The notes under the pieces: model-generated | Databases searched by the model: none | Told to the model about the DNA's origin: nothing | The model's input: the letters and a program-made list of their open reading frames with translations, nothing else | Source: Thermococcus peptonophilus | GTDB lineage: Archaea; Methanobacteriota_B; Thermococci; Thermococcales; Thermococcaceae | Reading direction: 5' to 3' | NCBI RefSeq assembly: GCF_001592435.1 | Contig: NZ_CP014750.1 | Coordinates: forward strand, 1,178,001 to 1,242,000 | Length of the DNA: 64,000 nucleotides | Made by a program: the position numbers and the translations under genes | Shown here: in pieces, positions 31,146 to 41,020 of the stretch | How the letters are laid out: every line of letters begins with the position of its first letter | Numbering within the stretch: the stretch's first letter is position 1

Positions 31146-31711
31146 CCCCTTTCCTCCGGCTCTTTGAGCTCAAACCTCGCGACTGTCTCGTATATTGGGC
31201 CCTTCGGCGTTAGCGTGCTCTTCTTCAGCTCTATTGCCTCGACCTCGAATTCTCCAAAGTCCTCGTTGGCGAGGTCTTTCAGGGCCATGGCAAGCTCGAG
31301 CTTGTCCCTGACGAACTTGACCCTGCCAATGGTGATATGAGCGACGAAGTCCTTCTCCTTCTTGAAGCCGAGCCTTCTCATGGCCTTCTCTACATCTTCA
31401 GCTATCGCCCTTATCCCCTCGTCGTTCTCTATCCCCGCCCAGATGACCCTAACGTAGTTCGGGTTCGGGAAGACTCCTATACCTTTCACCCTAACGCGGT
31501 GCTTCTTGTGCCTCTTTGCTATCTCCGCCAGTGCCCTCTTAACTTCCTCGGCGGTAGTCTCATCTATCTCTCCAAGGAACTTGAGCGTCACATGGAAGTT
31601 CTCCCTCTCGACGAACTTTATCTTTGCCGCTTTGTTCCCTATCCTCCCCCGGGCCTTGAGCAGGTTGTCCCTAACCTCGTCGCTGACTTCTATCGCTATG
31701 AACGCCCTCAT
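31142..31711 (-). CDS. thpR: RNA 2',3'-cyclic phosphodiesterase (LigT/ThpR)
   Basis: The 189-residue protein has the two HxTx motifs of the 2H superfamily: HVTLKFLG in the first third and HITIGRVKF in the last third. GGTGATACC precedes the ATG. It opens 2',3'-cyclic phosphate ends left by RNA processing. The stop overlaps the cca start, as is common in Thermococcales. Confidence 0.9.
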
Positions 31712-31750
31712 GGTATCACCAAGAAGAGTGGGGGCGGGAGAATAAAAACC

Positions 31751-32215
31751 TCACTCCCTCACAACAACGGGAAACTCCTCCCAGGGGAAGACGATCCACT
31801 TGTCCGTCCTGAAGACGTAGAAGTCCGGAACTACCTTCGTCCAGGGCTTCATGCTGAGGCAGGCGACCTTAACCTCGCTTGCCCCAGCTTTCTTCACTTC
31901 CTCGATGACAACTTCGAGGGTCTTTCCGGTGTCGCTGACGTCGTCCACAATAACGACCTTCTTTCCTTCAAGCGAGCCGTGGAGTGGGATGTTTATGACC
32001 GGCTTCTCCATTCTCTCATCTATGTCCTTGTAGAACTTGACGTCTATGACCTTCACTTCGAGGTCGCCGAGGATATGGCTGAGCCTCACAGCCGGGATAA
32101 GCCCGCCCCTCGCGACTCCAACGATCACATCCGGCATGAAGTTCTTCCTCAGCTCGTCCGCCAGAGCGAATATTGCCCTGTCAACCTGCCACCAGGTGAG
32201 GTAAACCTTGTCCAT
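31751..32215 (-). CDS. Purine phosphoribosyltransferase (xanthine-guanine/hypoxanthine type)
   Basis: The 154-residue protein has the PRPP-binding motif VVIVDDVSDTGKTLEVV and an N-terminal VGVARGGLIPAVRLS loop, both typical of the small xanthine-guanine class of type I phosphoribosyltransferases. It would salvage purine bases to nucleoside monophosphates. GGAGGTGTTGAC precedes the ATG. Base specificity cannot be read from the motifs. It marks the boundary between GC-rich housekeeping DNA and the AT-rich peptide cluster. Confidence 0.85.
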   Translation of the reverse strand: MDKVYLTWWQVDRAIFALADELRKNFMPDVIVGVARGGLIPAVRLSHILGDLEVKVIDVKFYKDIDERMEKPVINIPLHGSLEGKKVVIVDDVSDTGKTLEVVIEEVKKAGASEVKVACLSMKPWTKVVPDFYVFRTDKWIVFPWEEFPVVVRE

Positions 32216-32320
32216 GTCAACACCTCCGAATAGCGCGGGCTTTAACCCTTTGGCCTTAAGGCTTTTGGCTGATGGATAGAAGTAAAAGTCTCGGGCTTAA
32301 AAAGTCTCCGTTGGCAGAAA

Positions 32321-32333
32321 GATGTTAAACATC
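32321..32333. promoter_or_regulatory. Inverted repeat upstream of the RiPP promoter
   Basis: GATGTT-A-AACATC is a perfect 6-bp palindrome with a one-base centre, about 36 bases upstream of the BRE of the peptide operon. Candidate operator; no cognate regulator gene is visible in the cluster. Confidence 0.35.
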
Positions 32334-32368
32334 ATATTACAAACAACATTTTGCAAACTATGAGTTTA

Positions 32369-32382
32369 GGAAAAATTTATAT
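32369..32382 (+). promoter_or_regulatory. Promoter of the RiPP operon
   Basis: GGAAAAA (BRE) is followed by TTTATAT (TATA). Transcription about 25 bases downstream, near 32405, leaves a leader of roughly 25 nt that carries the precursor's ribosome-binding site GGAGGTGAT (32418-32426). Confidence 0.55.
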
Positions 32383-32429
32383 TCGTATTATATAACTTTC
32401 CAACGCAAACATAACATGGAGGTGATATC

Positions 32430-32561
32430 TTGGAGTTGGGACTTCTTGCTACTAAGATTAGTCAGGTAGGGTTGGAGCCAGGCCACGGACCTGATGGGAT
32501 TCCAATTCCAATATGCATGGCCTGTTGCTTGTTGGGTGGTGGTGGGGTTAATCCCTATTGA
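32430..32561 (+). CDS. Putative RiPP precursor peptide, 43 residues, Cys- and Gly-rich end
   Basis: TTG at 32430 follows GGAGGTGAT by three bases, a nine-base match to the anti-Shine-Dalgarno end of 16S rRNA and the strongest such site I noticed in the window. The frame is closed by a TAA at 32412-32414, so no ATG or GTG start exists upstream. The leader-like first 28 residues contain LLATKISQVGLEPGHGPDG and an IPIPI stretch; the last 15 are CMACCLLGGGGVNPY, with C29, C32, C33 and four Gly. A short peptide directly before a radical SAM gene with a PqqD-like domain is the classic layout of a modified-peptide (RiPP) cluster. The reading frame is supported by sequence; modification is inferred. 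The same bases are open in a second frame belonging to the enzyme gene's upstream extension. Confidence 0.75.
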   Translation: MELGLLATKISQVGLEPGHGPDGIPIPICMACCLLGGGGVNPY

Positions 32562-32563
32562 CG

Positions 32564-32577
32564 TTTGTTTATTTTTT
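32564..32577 (+). terminator. T-rich tract between precursor and enzyme genes, possible attenuator
   Basis: TTTGTTTATTTTTT lies two bases after the precursor stop and before the enzyme's ribosome-binding site. Archaeal RNA polymerase terminates at such U-tracts, so partial termination could yield more precursor mRNA than enzyme mRNA. Confidence 0.4.
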
Positions 32578-32598
32578 AACTTAAGAGGGGGTATTGTG

Positions 32599-34047
32599 AT
32601 GAGTATAGAAACTTTGGAAAAAGTCTACCCGGTTCCTCGTGAGAGACTCATTATGAGAAGGGATAGCTATGGCGTCGTAGCCATGGTGTATCCATTTGGG
32701 GGCACCCTTAGAATATTGCACCCCTCTGAAGCTGTGATAATCGCGCTGTGCGATGGCACAAGAACGATTGGGGACATCATTGATATCGTTTCGAGGATAT
32801 TTAATATTGACCGCACACGCTCAAGGAACTACGTGGAGCATATATTTAACACGTATAACGAGTATTTCCAATTCTCGAACTTGCCTCTGGAAAGTACTGT
32901 CAGTTATGACCCAATGGACTTTGTATATTCGCCGAAAAGCTTTAAAAACTTCAGGCATTACTTGGAAAGTCCTCTTGGAATTACCTATGTATGTACTAAA
33001 GTGTGCCATCTGAGGTGTAAATACTGCTACGCAAATTCTGTACACATCTCAGACAGTATGAATAGTTCAATTGATAGTCCTCTATCTTTAGAAATCCTTG
33101 AGAAAATAGTTAGGGATTTCAAGGAGAATGGGATTAAATTTGCCCTGTTCTCTGGCGGTGAGCCTTTGTTGTTAAAGGATATTCATAAGAGAGTAGAACT
33201 GTTTACGAGAAATGATATTCGCGTTTTTATCTCAACTAAATACCCTGTAAGCAGGAAAAAGAGTGAACAGCTCAAGAAAGCGGGGATAAAGGAGATACAA
33301 GTTAGCTTGGACTCGTTTATTCCGGATATTGAAGATGAATTAGTCGGTGTGCCTGGGATGTTTTATAAACTAATTAGATCCATAGAGAACCTAATTGAAG
33401 CGGGAATAGAGGTATGGGTCAACACGGTGTTGACATCAAAGAATATTTACGAGTTCCCAAAATTTGTCAGGTTTCTGAATAAACTGGGAGTCAAACGGGT
33501 TACTCCCTCATTATACACGGTTCCTATAGGGTGGGCTTCCAGATATGCTTCGGAGTTGTTGCCCTCCTCAGAGCAGCTGTCCTGGCTATCCCGTGAGCTT
33601 AAACAAATTAATCCCACTCGAGAGGAGTCCATAAACGTAGATTATTTTACTCAGTCTAATGGTATCTCTCTTGATAAGCAGGTTCAGACTATGAGTTCAT
33701 TCCAGAGGCAGCTCTGTGGTGGGGGACGGGTGGGGCTGGTAATGTTGCCCGACGGTAGAGTGACTGTGTGTGAGAGGTTAGCCAATTTGGACTGGCTGAT
33801 TGTGGGAGATTTAAAAAAAGAAAGTGTGCGTGATGTCTGGGAGTCAGAGAGAGTAAGGTGGTTTAGGAACCTGCCTCGGGAACTATATCGGGGCACTCCC
33901 TGCTATTCATGCCAGTATTTTGAAACAATATGCCAGCCTCGGGGGATATGCCTGTTGTCAAGTTATGCCTTAAATGGCAGATTTTTTGGTCCGGATTCAA
34001 TGTGTCCATTTGTCCGGAGGGGGAGGAAGAATGAAAGTAAAGGTTGA
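32599..34047 (+). CDS. Peptide-modifying radical SAM/SPASM enzyme with N-terminal PqqD-like domain
   Basis: GAGGGGGT at 32585-32592 sets the ATG at 32599; the frame is open to 32494, but that stretch overlaps the precursor gene in another frame. The 482-residue protein has a PqqD-like (RiPP recognition) N-terminus, about residues 15-90, with LHPSEAVIIALCDGTRTIGDII. The radical SAM domain has C136, C140 and C143 (CHLRCKYC) and SGGEP (185-189). The C-terminal SPASM domain has seven Cys: C373, C391 (in GRVTVC), C435, C438, C445, C451 and C469, as expected for two auxiliary 4Fe-4S clusters. Enzymes of this build make thioether or C-C links in peptides. The substrate is very likely the peptide encoded just upstream. 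Base composition is AT-rich, unlike both flanks. Confidence 0.88.
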   Translation: MSIETLEKVYPVPRERLIMRRDSYGVVAMVYPFGGTLRILHPSEAVIIALCDGTRTIGDIIDIVSRIFNIDRTRSRNYVEHIFNTYNEYFQFSNLPLESTVSYDPMDFVYSPKSFKNFRHYLESPLGITYVCTKVCHLRCKYCYANSVHISDSMNSSIDSPLSLEILEKIVRDFKENGIKFALFSGGEPLLLKDIHKRVELFTRNDIRVFISTKYPVSRKKSEQLKKAGIKEIQVSLDSFIPDIEDELVGVPGMFYKLIRSIENLIEAGIEVWVNTVLTSKNIYEFPKFVRFLNKLGVKRVTPSLYTVPIGWASRYASELLPSSEQLSWLSRELKQINPTREESINVDYFTQSNGISLDKQVQTMSSFQRQLCGGGRVGLVMLPDGRVTVCERLANLDWLIVGDLKKESVRDVWESERVRWFRNLPRELYRGTPCYSCQYFETICQPRGICLLSSYALNGRFFGPDSMCPFVRRGRKNESKG

Positions 34048-34873
34048 TAACTTAGTCAAGGTTTATGGTGATGTTATCGCTCTAAAGAACGTTACTTTAA
34101 GCTTTAAAGCTGGAAATATTTATGTGTTGCTTGGTCCAAACGGAGCAGGTAAGACTACACTCGTTAAAATAATTTCCGGTCTTATACCTCCAACCTCTGG
34201 TGATGTTTATGTCAATGGTTTAAGTGTTACTGAAAACCCCAGTTCGGCCAGGAACATGCTTCGCTTTGTACCCCAGGAGCCTGCCCTTGACTGGTTGCTC
34301 TCTGTGTACGACAATCTATATTACTATGCATGGCTTCTAGGTTTGCCTAAAGCGGAAAGGAAAAGGGCTGTTGAGAGGGTACTAAAAAAATTTAATTTAA
34401 GTGATTATTCAAACTTTGCTATCAACCAGCTCTCCGGGGGCCTTCAAAGGCGGGTTCAGATTGCTAGAGCGTTCCTAGATGAAACTAGGCCTCTTCTTAT
34501 ACTTGATGAGCCTACTATTGGAGTTGACCCTGTGGGCAAACTTCAGATTTGGGAACTCATAAAAGATGAGACCTCTTCTGGGGATATCCTCACTATAGTA
34601 TGTACAAATGACTTGAGTGAGGCTGAGTTTTTGGGGGATATAATTGTTTTGTTGAACAAGAAAGTTATTAGAGTTCTTAAAAAAGAGGATATTGCCCTTG
34701 AAGACTCTGTTGAGATTGTTACCTCCTCAGAGTCCATAATCGTTAACAGGAGGGAACTCAACAAAACCCTTCTTTCCCTCATTTATGATGGGATTGAGAT
34801 AAGGTCAGTATCACCAAAGAGACCCTCTCTGATGGATGTGTTTAGAGAGTATTTTGGAGGTGGTTCCGAATGA
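34031..34873 (+). CDS. ABC transporter ATPase of the RiPP cluster
   Basis: The ATG at 34031 (MKVKVDNLVKVYGD) follows GGGAGGAAGA and overlaps the enzyme gene by 17 bases. The 280-residue ATPase has Walker A GPNGAGKTT (35-43), Q-loop Q82, signature LSGGLQ (134-139) and Walker B LLILDEP (155-161). At the H-loop position there is N193 (CTNDLSEAE) where His is usual. No peptidase domain is fused, so leader removal must be done by another protein. It pairs with the downstream ABC-2 permease to export the peptide or confer self-protection. Confidence 0.88.
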   Translation: MKVKVDNLVKVYGDVIALKNVTLSFKAGNIYVLLGPNGAGKTTLVKIISGLIPPTSGDVYVNGLSVTENPSSARNMLRFVPQEPALDWLLSVYDNLYYYAWLLGLPKAERKRAVERVLKKFNLSDYSNFAINQLSGGLQRRVQIARAFLDETRPLLILDEPTIGVDPVGKLQIWELIKDETSSGDILTIVCTNDLSEAEFLGDIIVLLNKKVIRVLKKEDIALEDSVEIVTSSESIIVNRRELNKTLLSLIYDGIEIRSVSPKRPSLMDVFREYFGGGSE

Positions 34874-35622
34874 TGAACTTGAGGATCCTACCTCTTGTGT
34901 GGAGAGAGCTTAAGGTTAACACCACGACTCATTTTGTTGTAGGCAAGATTATAGTTCCCACTGCATATCTGTTACTTTTTTCTCTTGGGTTTAGTTATGC
35001 ATTTAATGGATTCTATTTAAATGGTGAACATGTGCCGTATACATCCTTTTTCTTGCCAGGACTGATTGCGCTCCAAGTTTTCCTGAACTACAGCTATGCC
35101 TTGAGCATGGTGAGATGGGATAGAATAACCAACTTAATCACAATAATAAAGATTGCGGGAGTTGGGATGGGAGAATACCTGCTGTCCAAGGTGTTTTCAA
35201 CGGTTTTATATTCGATGTTGCAGGGAGTGTACCTGATTCTACTCGGGGCAGTGTTTTTTGGACGTTTTCCCACTTTCCAGGGTTTTGTGTACATGCTTGT
35301 GGGAATATTTGTAGGTTGTGTTTTCTGGGTTGCTCTTGGAGTGGTGCTTGGGATAGTCATAACAAATGATGTTAAAAGGGACATCATTACGACCTTGGTG
35401 GGTTTGCCAGCGTCTTTTGCCAGTTCTGTATTCTATCCCTTGAATATGATACACTCGAGTATTTTCAAAGCTATTGTTTTGCTGAATCCCTTGACGTATT
35501 TGGCTCAGTTCCTAAGGAACGCATATCTGTTTGGAACATTTGATACCACATCCTTTTTAATATTGCTTGTTGCCTCCGGGTTGTTATCTCTCCTAAGTTA
35601 TTACACAGCCAGAAATGTGTAG
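34870..35622 (+). CDS. ABC-2 type permease of the RiPP cluster
   Basis: The 250-residue membrane protein has six hydrophobic segments and the ABC-2 pattern near its end (GLPASFASSVFYPLN then NPLTYLAQFLRNAYL), as in NodJ/DrrB-type exporters. Its ATG overlaps the ATPase stop (ATGA), so the two are made together. In peptide clusters such transporters export the product or protect the producer. It is the last gene of the operon; the reductase gene converges 58 bases further on. Confidence 0.85.
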   Translation: MMNLRILPLVWRELKVNTTTHFVVGKIIVPTAYLLLFSLGFSYAFNGFYLNGEHVPYTSFFLPGLIALQVFLNYSYALSMVRWDRITNLITIIKIAGVGMGEYLLSKVFSTVLYSMLQGVYLILLGAVFFGRFPTFQGFVYMLVGIFVGCVFWVALGVVLGIVITNDVKRDIITTLVGLPASFASSVFYPLNMIHSSIFKAIVLLNPLTYLAQFLRNAYLFGTFDTTSFLILLVASGLLSLLSYYTARNV

Positions 35623-35680
35623 TTTAACCTGGAGTGTCACTCCTTGTAAATTTTATCATGAAGAATAAAATGGGAATTCC

Positions 35681-41020
<5,340 letters not shown>

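Follow-up and report, generated by a model that had tools for sequence, protein, structure and literature searches.

In the skf operon of Bacillus subtilis (SkfA, SkfB, SkfE/F), a short cysteine-containing precursor is encoded together with a radical S-adenosylmethionine (SAM) maturase that carries a recognition element (RRE) for ribosomally synthesized and post-translationally modified peptides (RiPPs), with an ABC exporter and with further genes. A similar layout of candidate precursor, radical SAM enzyme with a putative RRE, and ABC transporter recurs in a 64 kb stretch of the Thermococcus peptonophilus genome (contig NZ_CP014750.1; hereafter the window), where four genes form an operon-like block on the plus strand at positions 32430-35622, as judged from the list of open reading frames (ORFs) and the sequence. 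We consider it very probable that this block is a horizontally acquired RiPP operon, in which a 43-residue peptide is crosslinked by the radical SAM enzyme and exported by the ABC pair. SkfB is both a PDB sequence match and a fold match of the window enzyme. However, the single auxiliary cluster of SkfB is housed in a Twitch domain (PMC6231123), whereas the window enzyme has seven SPASM cysteines, and the extra skf genes are absent from the window cassette.

Other described systems share some of these properties. The SuiB/streptide-type and CteB maturases combine an RRE with radical SAM and SPASM domains, the layout predicted for the window enzyme, at 16-17% identity, but streptide precursors have a Lys-Trp core and the 43-mer contains no Trp. 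The best full-length bacterial relatives of the enzyme are found on Rhizobium and Paenibacillus plasmids, with Cys-rich short ORFs nearby. For example, the radical SAM protein of Paenibacillus peoriae plasmid NZ_CP011513 (L021) is 28% identical over 90% of the query, and two Cys-rich precursor-like short ORFs lie directly upstream of it. Unlike the window locus, however, this gene is split into two frames and has no adjoining ABC pair, and its precursors are 65-68 residues long with CxxxC-type cores, one of them weakly TIGR04118-like (E 0.077). Most archaeal RiPPs whose products have been verified are lanthipeptides of Haloarchaea (PMC12144867), which depend on LanM chemistry rather than on radical SAM enzymes (PMC12144867, PMC10105419); validation had previously been achieved for only two lanthipeptides from archaea, and the ranthi- and sactipeptide classes emerging from archaeal genome mining are listed among predictions (PMC12144867). 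Our literature search found no radical SAM RiPP cassette or product described from Thermococcales. Radical SAM RiPP cassettes are a known kind of locus, and the enzyme subfamily and the core found here are absent from the curated libraries.

The enzyme matches the Pfam radical SAM (3.8e-23) and SPASM (3.2e-9) models, and alignments place the radical SAM cluster motif at C136-x3-C140-x2-C143 and the seven SPASM cysteines at C373, C391, C435, C438, C445, C451 and C469. The third to sixth of these are spaced CX2CX6CX5C, a slight departure from the published CX2CX5CX3C motif (PMC6231123). Sequence matches in the PDB comprise PqqE, BlsE, MoaA, SkfB, SuiB and CteB, and a Foldseek search with the AlphaFold model (mean predicted local distance difference test score, pLDDT, 69; core above 90; N-terminus about 40-75) returned SuiB, PqqE, CteB and SkfB at the top, the SuiB and CteB alignments spanning about 475-485 columns with the N-terminus included. 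Among the best NCBIfam matches, no cassette protein reaches a protein-family cut-off. The StsB score of 71 bits (cut-off 625) leaves the enzyme outside the curated sacti/ranthi families, and PapB, SCIFF and RumMC are absent from its best 25 NCBIfam matches. By these comparisons the enzyme is an unclassified SPASM protein.

The candidate precursor has a predicted core, CMACCLLGGGGVNPY, that runs from C29-M-A-C32-C33 to Y43, with C29, C32 and C33 as possible thioether donors. The window contains just three copies of the motif GGAGGTGA when both strands are counted, and one copy lies 4 nt ahead of the TTG codon of this ORF, a placement that appears to be more than chance. Since a Shine-Dalgarno sequence and a TATA/BRE-like box (BRE, B recognition element) both lie 5' of the small ORF (Table 1), it would be the first gene of the putative four-gene operon. 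Codon usage in the 43 codons fits that of the cassette genes, falling at the 39th percentile of in-frame windows; however, this test is supportive but weak by itself, because 16% of wrong-frame open windows score equally. The gap between the precursor ORF and the radical SAM gene is 37 nt, the radical SAM and ATPase genes overlap by 17 nt, and the ATPase and permease genes overlap by 4 nt. The GC content within the block is 0.38-0.48 (about 42% overall), compared with 0.50-0.59 in the flanking genes. An earlier note made from the DNA letters had described four tightly spaced or overlapping genes in an AT-rich block amid GC-rich genes, and both descriptions hold, with all ORFs where that note had placed them. 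A search of Rfam gave no match across positions 31500-36500.

The ABC ATPase and ABC-2 permease that the note had recognized are confirmed by their Pfam matches (Table 1). Against the NCBIfam drrA model (TIGR01188) the ATPase scores 206 bits (cut-off 312), and against drrB (TIGR01247) the permease scores 63 bits (2.4e-17; cut-off 223). On these scores the pair appears similar to the DrrAB daunorubicin-type exporters without being members of those families.

A pathway can be proposed from these components. The 43-mer would be translated first, and its N-terminal part (approximately residues 1-27) would be held by the putative PqqD-like RRE of the enzyme, which, with SAM and [4Fe-4S] clusters, would abstract a hydrogen from the core at the C-terminal end and so create one or more intramolecular bonds, with thioethers from Cys29/32/33 as the likeliest outcome. 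Export of the product, and probably protection of the producer, would fall to the DrrAB-type pair, the leader would be cut off by a host peptidase, and the mature peptide may serve in competition, as an archaeocin, or in signaling, the two roles that the note had considered.

Table 1. Positions of the cassette and its parts in the window.
Feature	Position	Strand	Evidence and remarks
Inserted cassette, approximate ends	32331..35665	+	Homology breaks; site unoccupied in most congeners
AT-rich TATA/BRE-like box around GAAAAATTTATATT	32370..32385	+	Sequence; about 50 nt upstream of TTG; putative promoter activity
Shine-Dalgarno sequence GGAGGTGAT	32418..32426	+	Near-perfect; 3 nt 5' of TTG; correctly spaced
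Candidate RiPP precursor, 43 aa, MELGLLATKISQVGLEPGHGPDGIPIPICMACCLLGGGGVNPY	32430..32561	+	ORF with TTG start, Shine-Dalgarno sequence and promoter-like box; first gene
Predicted radical SAM/SPASM peptide maturase, 482 aa from ATG, PqqD-like (RRE) N-terminus	32599..34047	+	Pfam/NCBIfam, alignments, PDB matches
ABC transporter ATPase, DrrA-like, 280 aa	34031..34873	+	Pfam ABC_tran 9.8e-33
ABC-2 permease, DrrB-like, 250 aa	34870..35622	+	Pfam ABC2_membrane 1.7e-13

A scan of the order with the PqqD model gave a handful of PqqD-radical SAM genes, whose loci were then inspected. One group of loci forms a sister cassette in which the genes are arranged as in the window, with a small CxxC ORF, a PqqD-radical SAM-SPASM gene, a DrrA-like ATPase and a DrrB-like permease in this order, and no peptidase gene lies between them. 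This cassette occurs in L195 (genome G078) and L196 (G046), is broken in L197 and L198 (G076) and partial in L199 (G063), and its ABC pair occurs alone in L200 (G093). Its precursor is a 37-residue CxxC peptide, MEQTKPVYDMSLKVGGGIVEPYDKWCAQCLINIPLPF, with a core, WCAQCLINIPLPF, that is unlike the window core, and in L195 it is preceded by a box, AAAAATTTATATT, that is nearly identical to the box of the window. The small ORFs of G078 and G046 are separated by 14 codon differences (11 synonymous, three nonsynonymous), and third positions account for 11 of the 14 nucleotide changes; farther upstream, the DNA of the two genomes cannot be aligned. Selection therefore appears to act on the small frame of the sister cassette, which is direct evidence there but not for the 43-mer. 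Together with the domains and the fold matches, this coding-constrained CxxC ORF gives good, if indirect, support to the earlier view that the window holds a RiPP-type locus. The window and sister proteins share 24% identity in the radical SAM enzyme, 39.5% over 210 residues in the ATPase and approximately 26-27% in the permease, and the sister permeases are the best matches of the window permease in the order. The settings differ, in that the sister cassette lies beside a gene resembling 5'-methylthioadenosine (MTA) phosphorylase in G078 and G076, whereas the window cassette lies beside a ribonucleotide reductase gene. In both cassette copies of G076 the radical SAM gene is split by about 850 bp (L197:3659-6007, L198:1241-3599), and a repeat of about 30 nt of gene sequence flanks the split on either side; the interruption looks like an insertion element.

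The window block itself is a discrete insertion. Homology to relatives ends at about 32329-32337 and restarts at about 35679-35685, between a phosphoribosyltransferase-like gene on the left and the ribonucleotide reductase gene on the right. These flanking genes are approximately 20-150 bp apart in 22 of the 29 same-genus loci compared and 0.4-0.8 kb apart in five, and other genes occupy the site in the remaining two (G070 and G071), so this site seems to be a variable spot. The cassette was probably acquired horizontally. The idea of a mobile element was rejected, as the block ends without a tRNA or terminal repeat and no recombinase gene lies within it. The occupants of the site in G070 and G071 are a 336-residue protein with a signal-peptide-like start and a 130-residue membrane protein (L153:1223-2622; L154:5434-6833). 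The adjacent ribonucleotide reductase gene (window 35681-40951) apparently contains two inteins, compared with one at the corresponding locus L153 of a relative and none at L154.

Neither the enzyme nor the peptide has close relatives in the collections searched. Among 94 genomes of the order there is no orthologue of the enzyme, and at E <= 1e-30 just two matches appear, both 28% identical; a phylum-wide search added nothing further. A search of 84,980 species with the single protein gave no close relative at the sensitivity used, and a three-sequence alignment searched against the same species yielded nothing but generic SPASM enzymes, most of them at 20-30% identity, among the matches listed. 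Nothing close was found in viral contigs and phages. The earlier note had proposed looking for the 43-mer next to the enzyme in related genomes, and had held that conservation of the enzyme without the peptide would speak against a RiPP. No second copy of either was found; both are jointly absent from the other 93 genomes, and the RiPP interpretation survives this comparison.

Several observations nevertheless weigh against a RiPP operon. The 43-mer occurs in its own genome alone among the 94, and without a homologue its translation and role therefore rest on its position and its Shine-Dalgarno sequence. The earlier description of a radical SAM-SPASM enzyme with a PqqD-like N-terminus stands for the first two domains, but the PqqD part is marginal (Pfam E 0.017, below the cut-off), although this region can be aligned with that of relatives whose PqqD scores exceed it. 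Residues 19-90 of the AlphaFold model form three strands and then three helices, the order expected of an RRE, but at low confidence (pLDDT about 40-75). As the note had also seen, no leader peptidase gene is present in the cassette. Finally, support for grouping the window enzyme with the sister enzymes is weak in the radical SAM tree (82/73), and no such grouping appears in the permease tree, which is contrary or uninformative on this point; thus we do not claim common descent of the two cassettes.

The absence of a 43-mer homologue wherever it was searched, together with its modest codon-usage result, is also compatible with a spurious ORF or a regulatory leader peptide, in which case the enzyme might act on another substrate (a small molecule, a lipid or a protein), with the ABC pair pumping the resulting product. 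The best NCBIfam scores of the enzyme indeed include the heme-pathway proteins NirJ2 and AhbD, but all are far below cut-off. Moreover, a near-perfect Shine-Dalgarno sequence and a promoter-like box directly precede the ORF, comparable small ORFs (two families of which are conserved between genomes) precede PqqD-radical SAM genes in other Thermococcales cassettes, and the N-terminal RRE-like module is of a peptide-binding type in an enzyme whose best fold matches are peptide maturases, all of which makes this alternative quite unlikely. Still less probable is a product of the redox-cofactor type represented by PQQ (pyrroloquinoline quinone) or mycofactocin, cut from the ...VNPY C-terminus rather than exported as a whole peptide. 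The C-terminal residue is indeed Tyr, PqqE is a structure match, and MftC and PqqE score 88 and 87 bits, but these scores lie far under the cut-offs of 265 and 381 bits and leave the enzyme outside the mycofactocin maturases. Genes resembling MftB/D/E, PqqB/C or a partner dehydrogenase are missing from the 3.3 kb insert, which does contain a dedicated ABC exporter, and the sister precursor ends in ...IPLPF rather than in Tyr.

It is also conceivable, but on balance unlikely, that the peptide is modified while the ABC pair is only an immunity pump or a passenger, with the product remaining intracellular or exported otherwise. DrrAB-type pumps mainly provide self-protection against small molecules, and the pair scores below the DrrA and DrrB cut-offs; however, the gene overlaps imply co-translation of the pair with the maturase, and the four-gene order recurs in the sister cassette. 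We favor an exported, crosslinked peptide. A broader proposal, which we regard as speculative, is that the window and sister cassettes represent an unrecognized class of hyperthermophile RiPPs with CxxC cores, one RRE-radical SAM-SPASM enzyme, a DrrAB-type pump and no dedicated protease, used for inter-archaeal conflict or signaling in heat and possibly bearing an undescribed crosslink. A peptide that crosslinks keep stable at the temperatures where a hyperthermophile grows would offer a useful test of radical SAM chemistry and would be a candidate for the missing antagonistic or signaling peptides of these archaea. Because the locus is small and self-contained and the Thermococcales include genetically tractable model species, the prediction is testable.

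The inspected loci include further arrangements of this general kind. A second RiPP-like cassette, present at three loci (L156:3665-7213, L155:6930-9750, L201:2494-5600) in genomes G016, G037 and G063, combines a small ORF having a WxxWxxWGK motif with a PqqD-radical SAM-SPASM gene and a major facilitator superfamily (MFS) transporter. The small ORF, for example MEEKPQFEEPQVVPLESEETQWALWSVWGKEFPGVS, is conserved across the three loci, an HExxH (zincin-like) ORF lies between the cassette genes in G037 (L156), and the radical SAM protein scores up to 180 bits against the WgkB model, below its cut-off. In G046 (L203:3400-7690), the small ORF MNDPKEIPQIVEEETEEWTFSDTQKGNEKWGSIL is followed by two consecutive radical SAM genes and an MFS transporter, and the KxxxW (streptide-type) maturase model aligns with the whole of the first enzyme at a score below its cut-off. 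Another radical SAM protein from the same genus (L202:3648-5120) is strongly PapB/QhpD/nif11/SCIFF-like (PapB 236 bits; cut-off 340). Two distinct radical SAM-peptide cassettes adjoin the same MTA-phosphorylase-like gene (L195, L155, L156, L197, L201). An amidohydrolase similar to MTA/5'-deoxyadenosine deaminases is often found with that gene, and deaminases of this type could recycle the by-product of radical SAM reactions. The order also commonly encodes a stand-alone PqqD-like protein, approximately 115-130 residues long, which occurs in about 45 genomes (e.g., L175:1360-1725). In G024 its gene is flanked by a peptidase-like gene and by a gene for a membrane protein resembling oligopeptide transporters, without a radical SAM gene.

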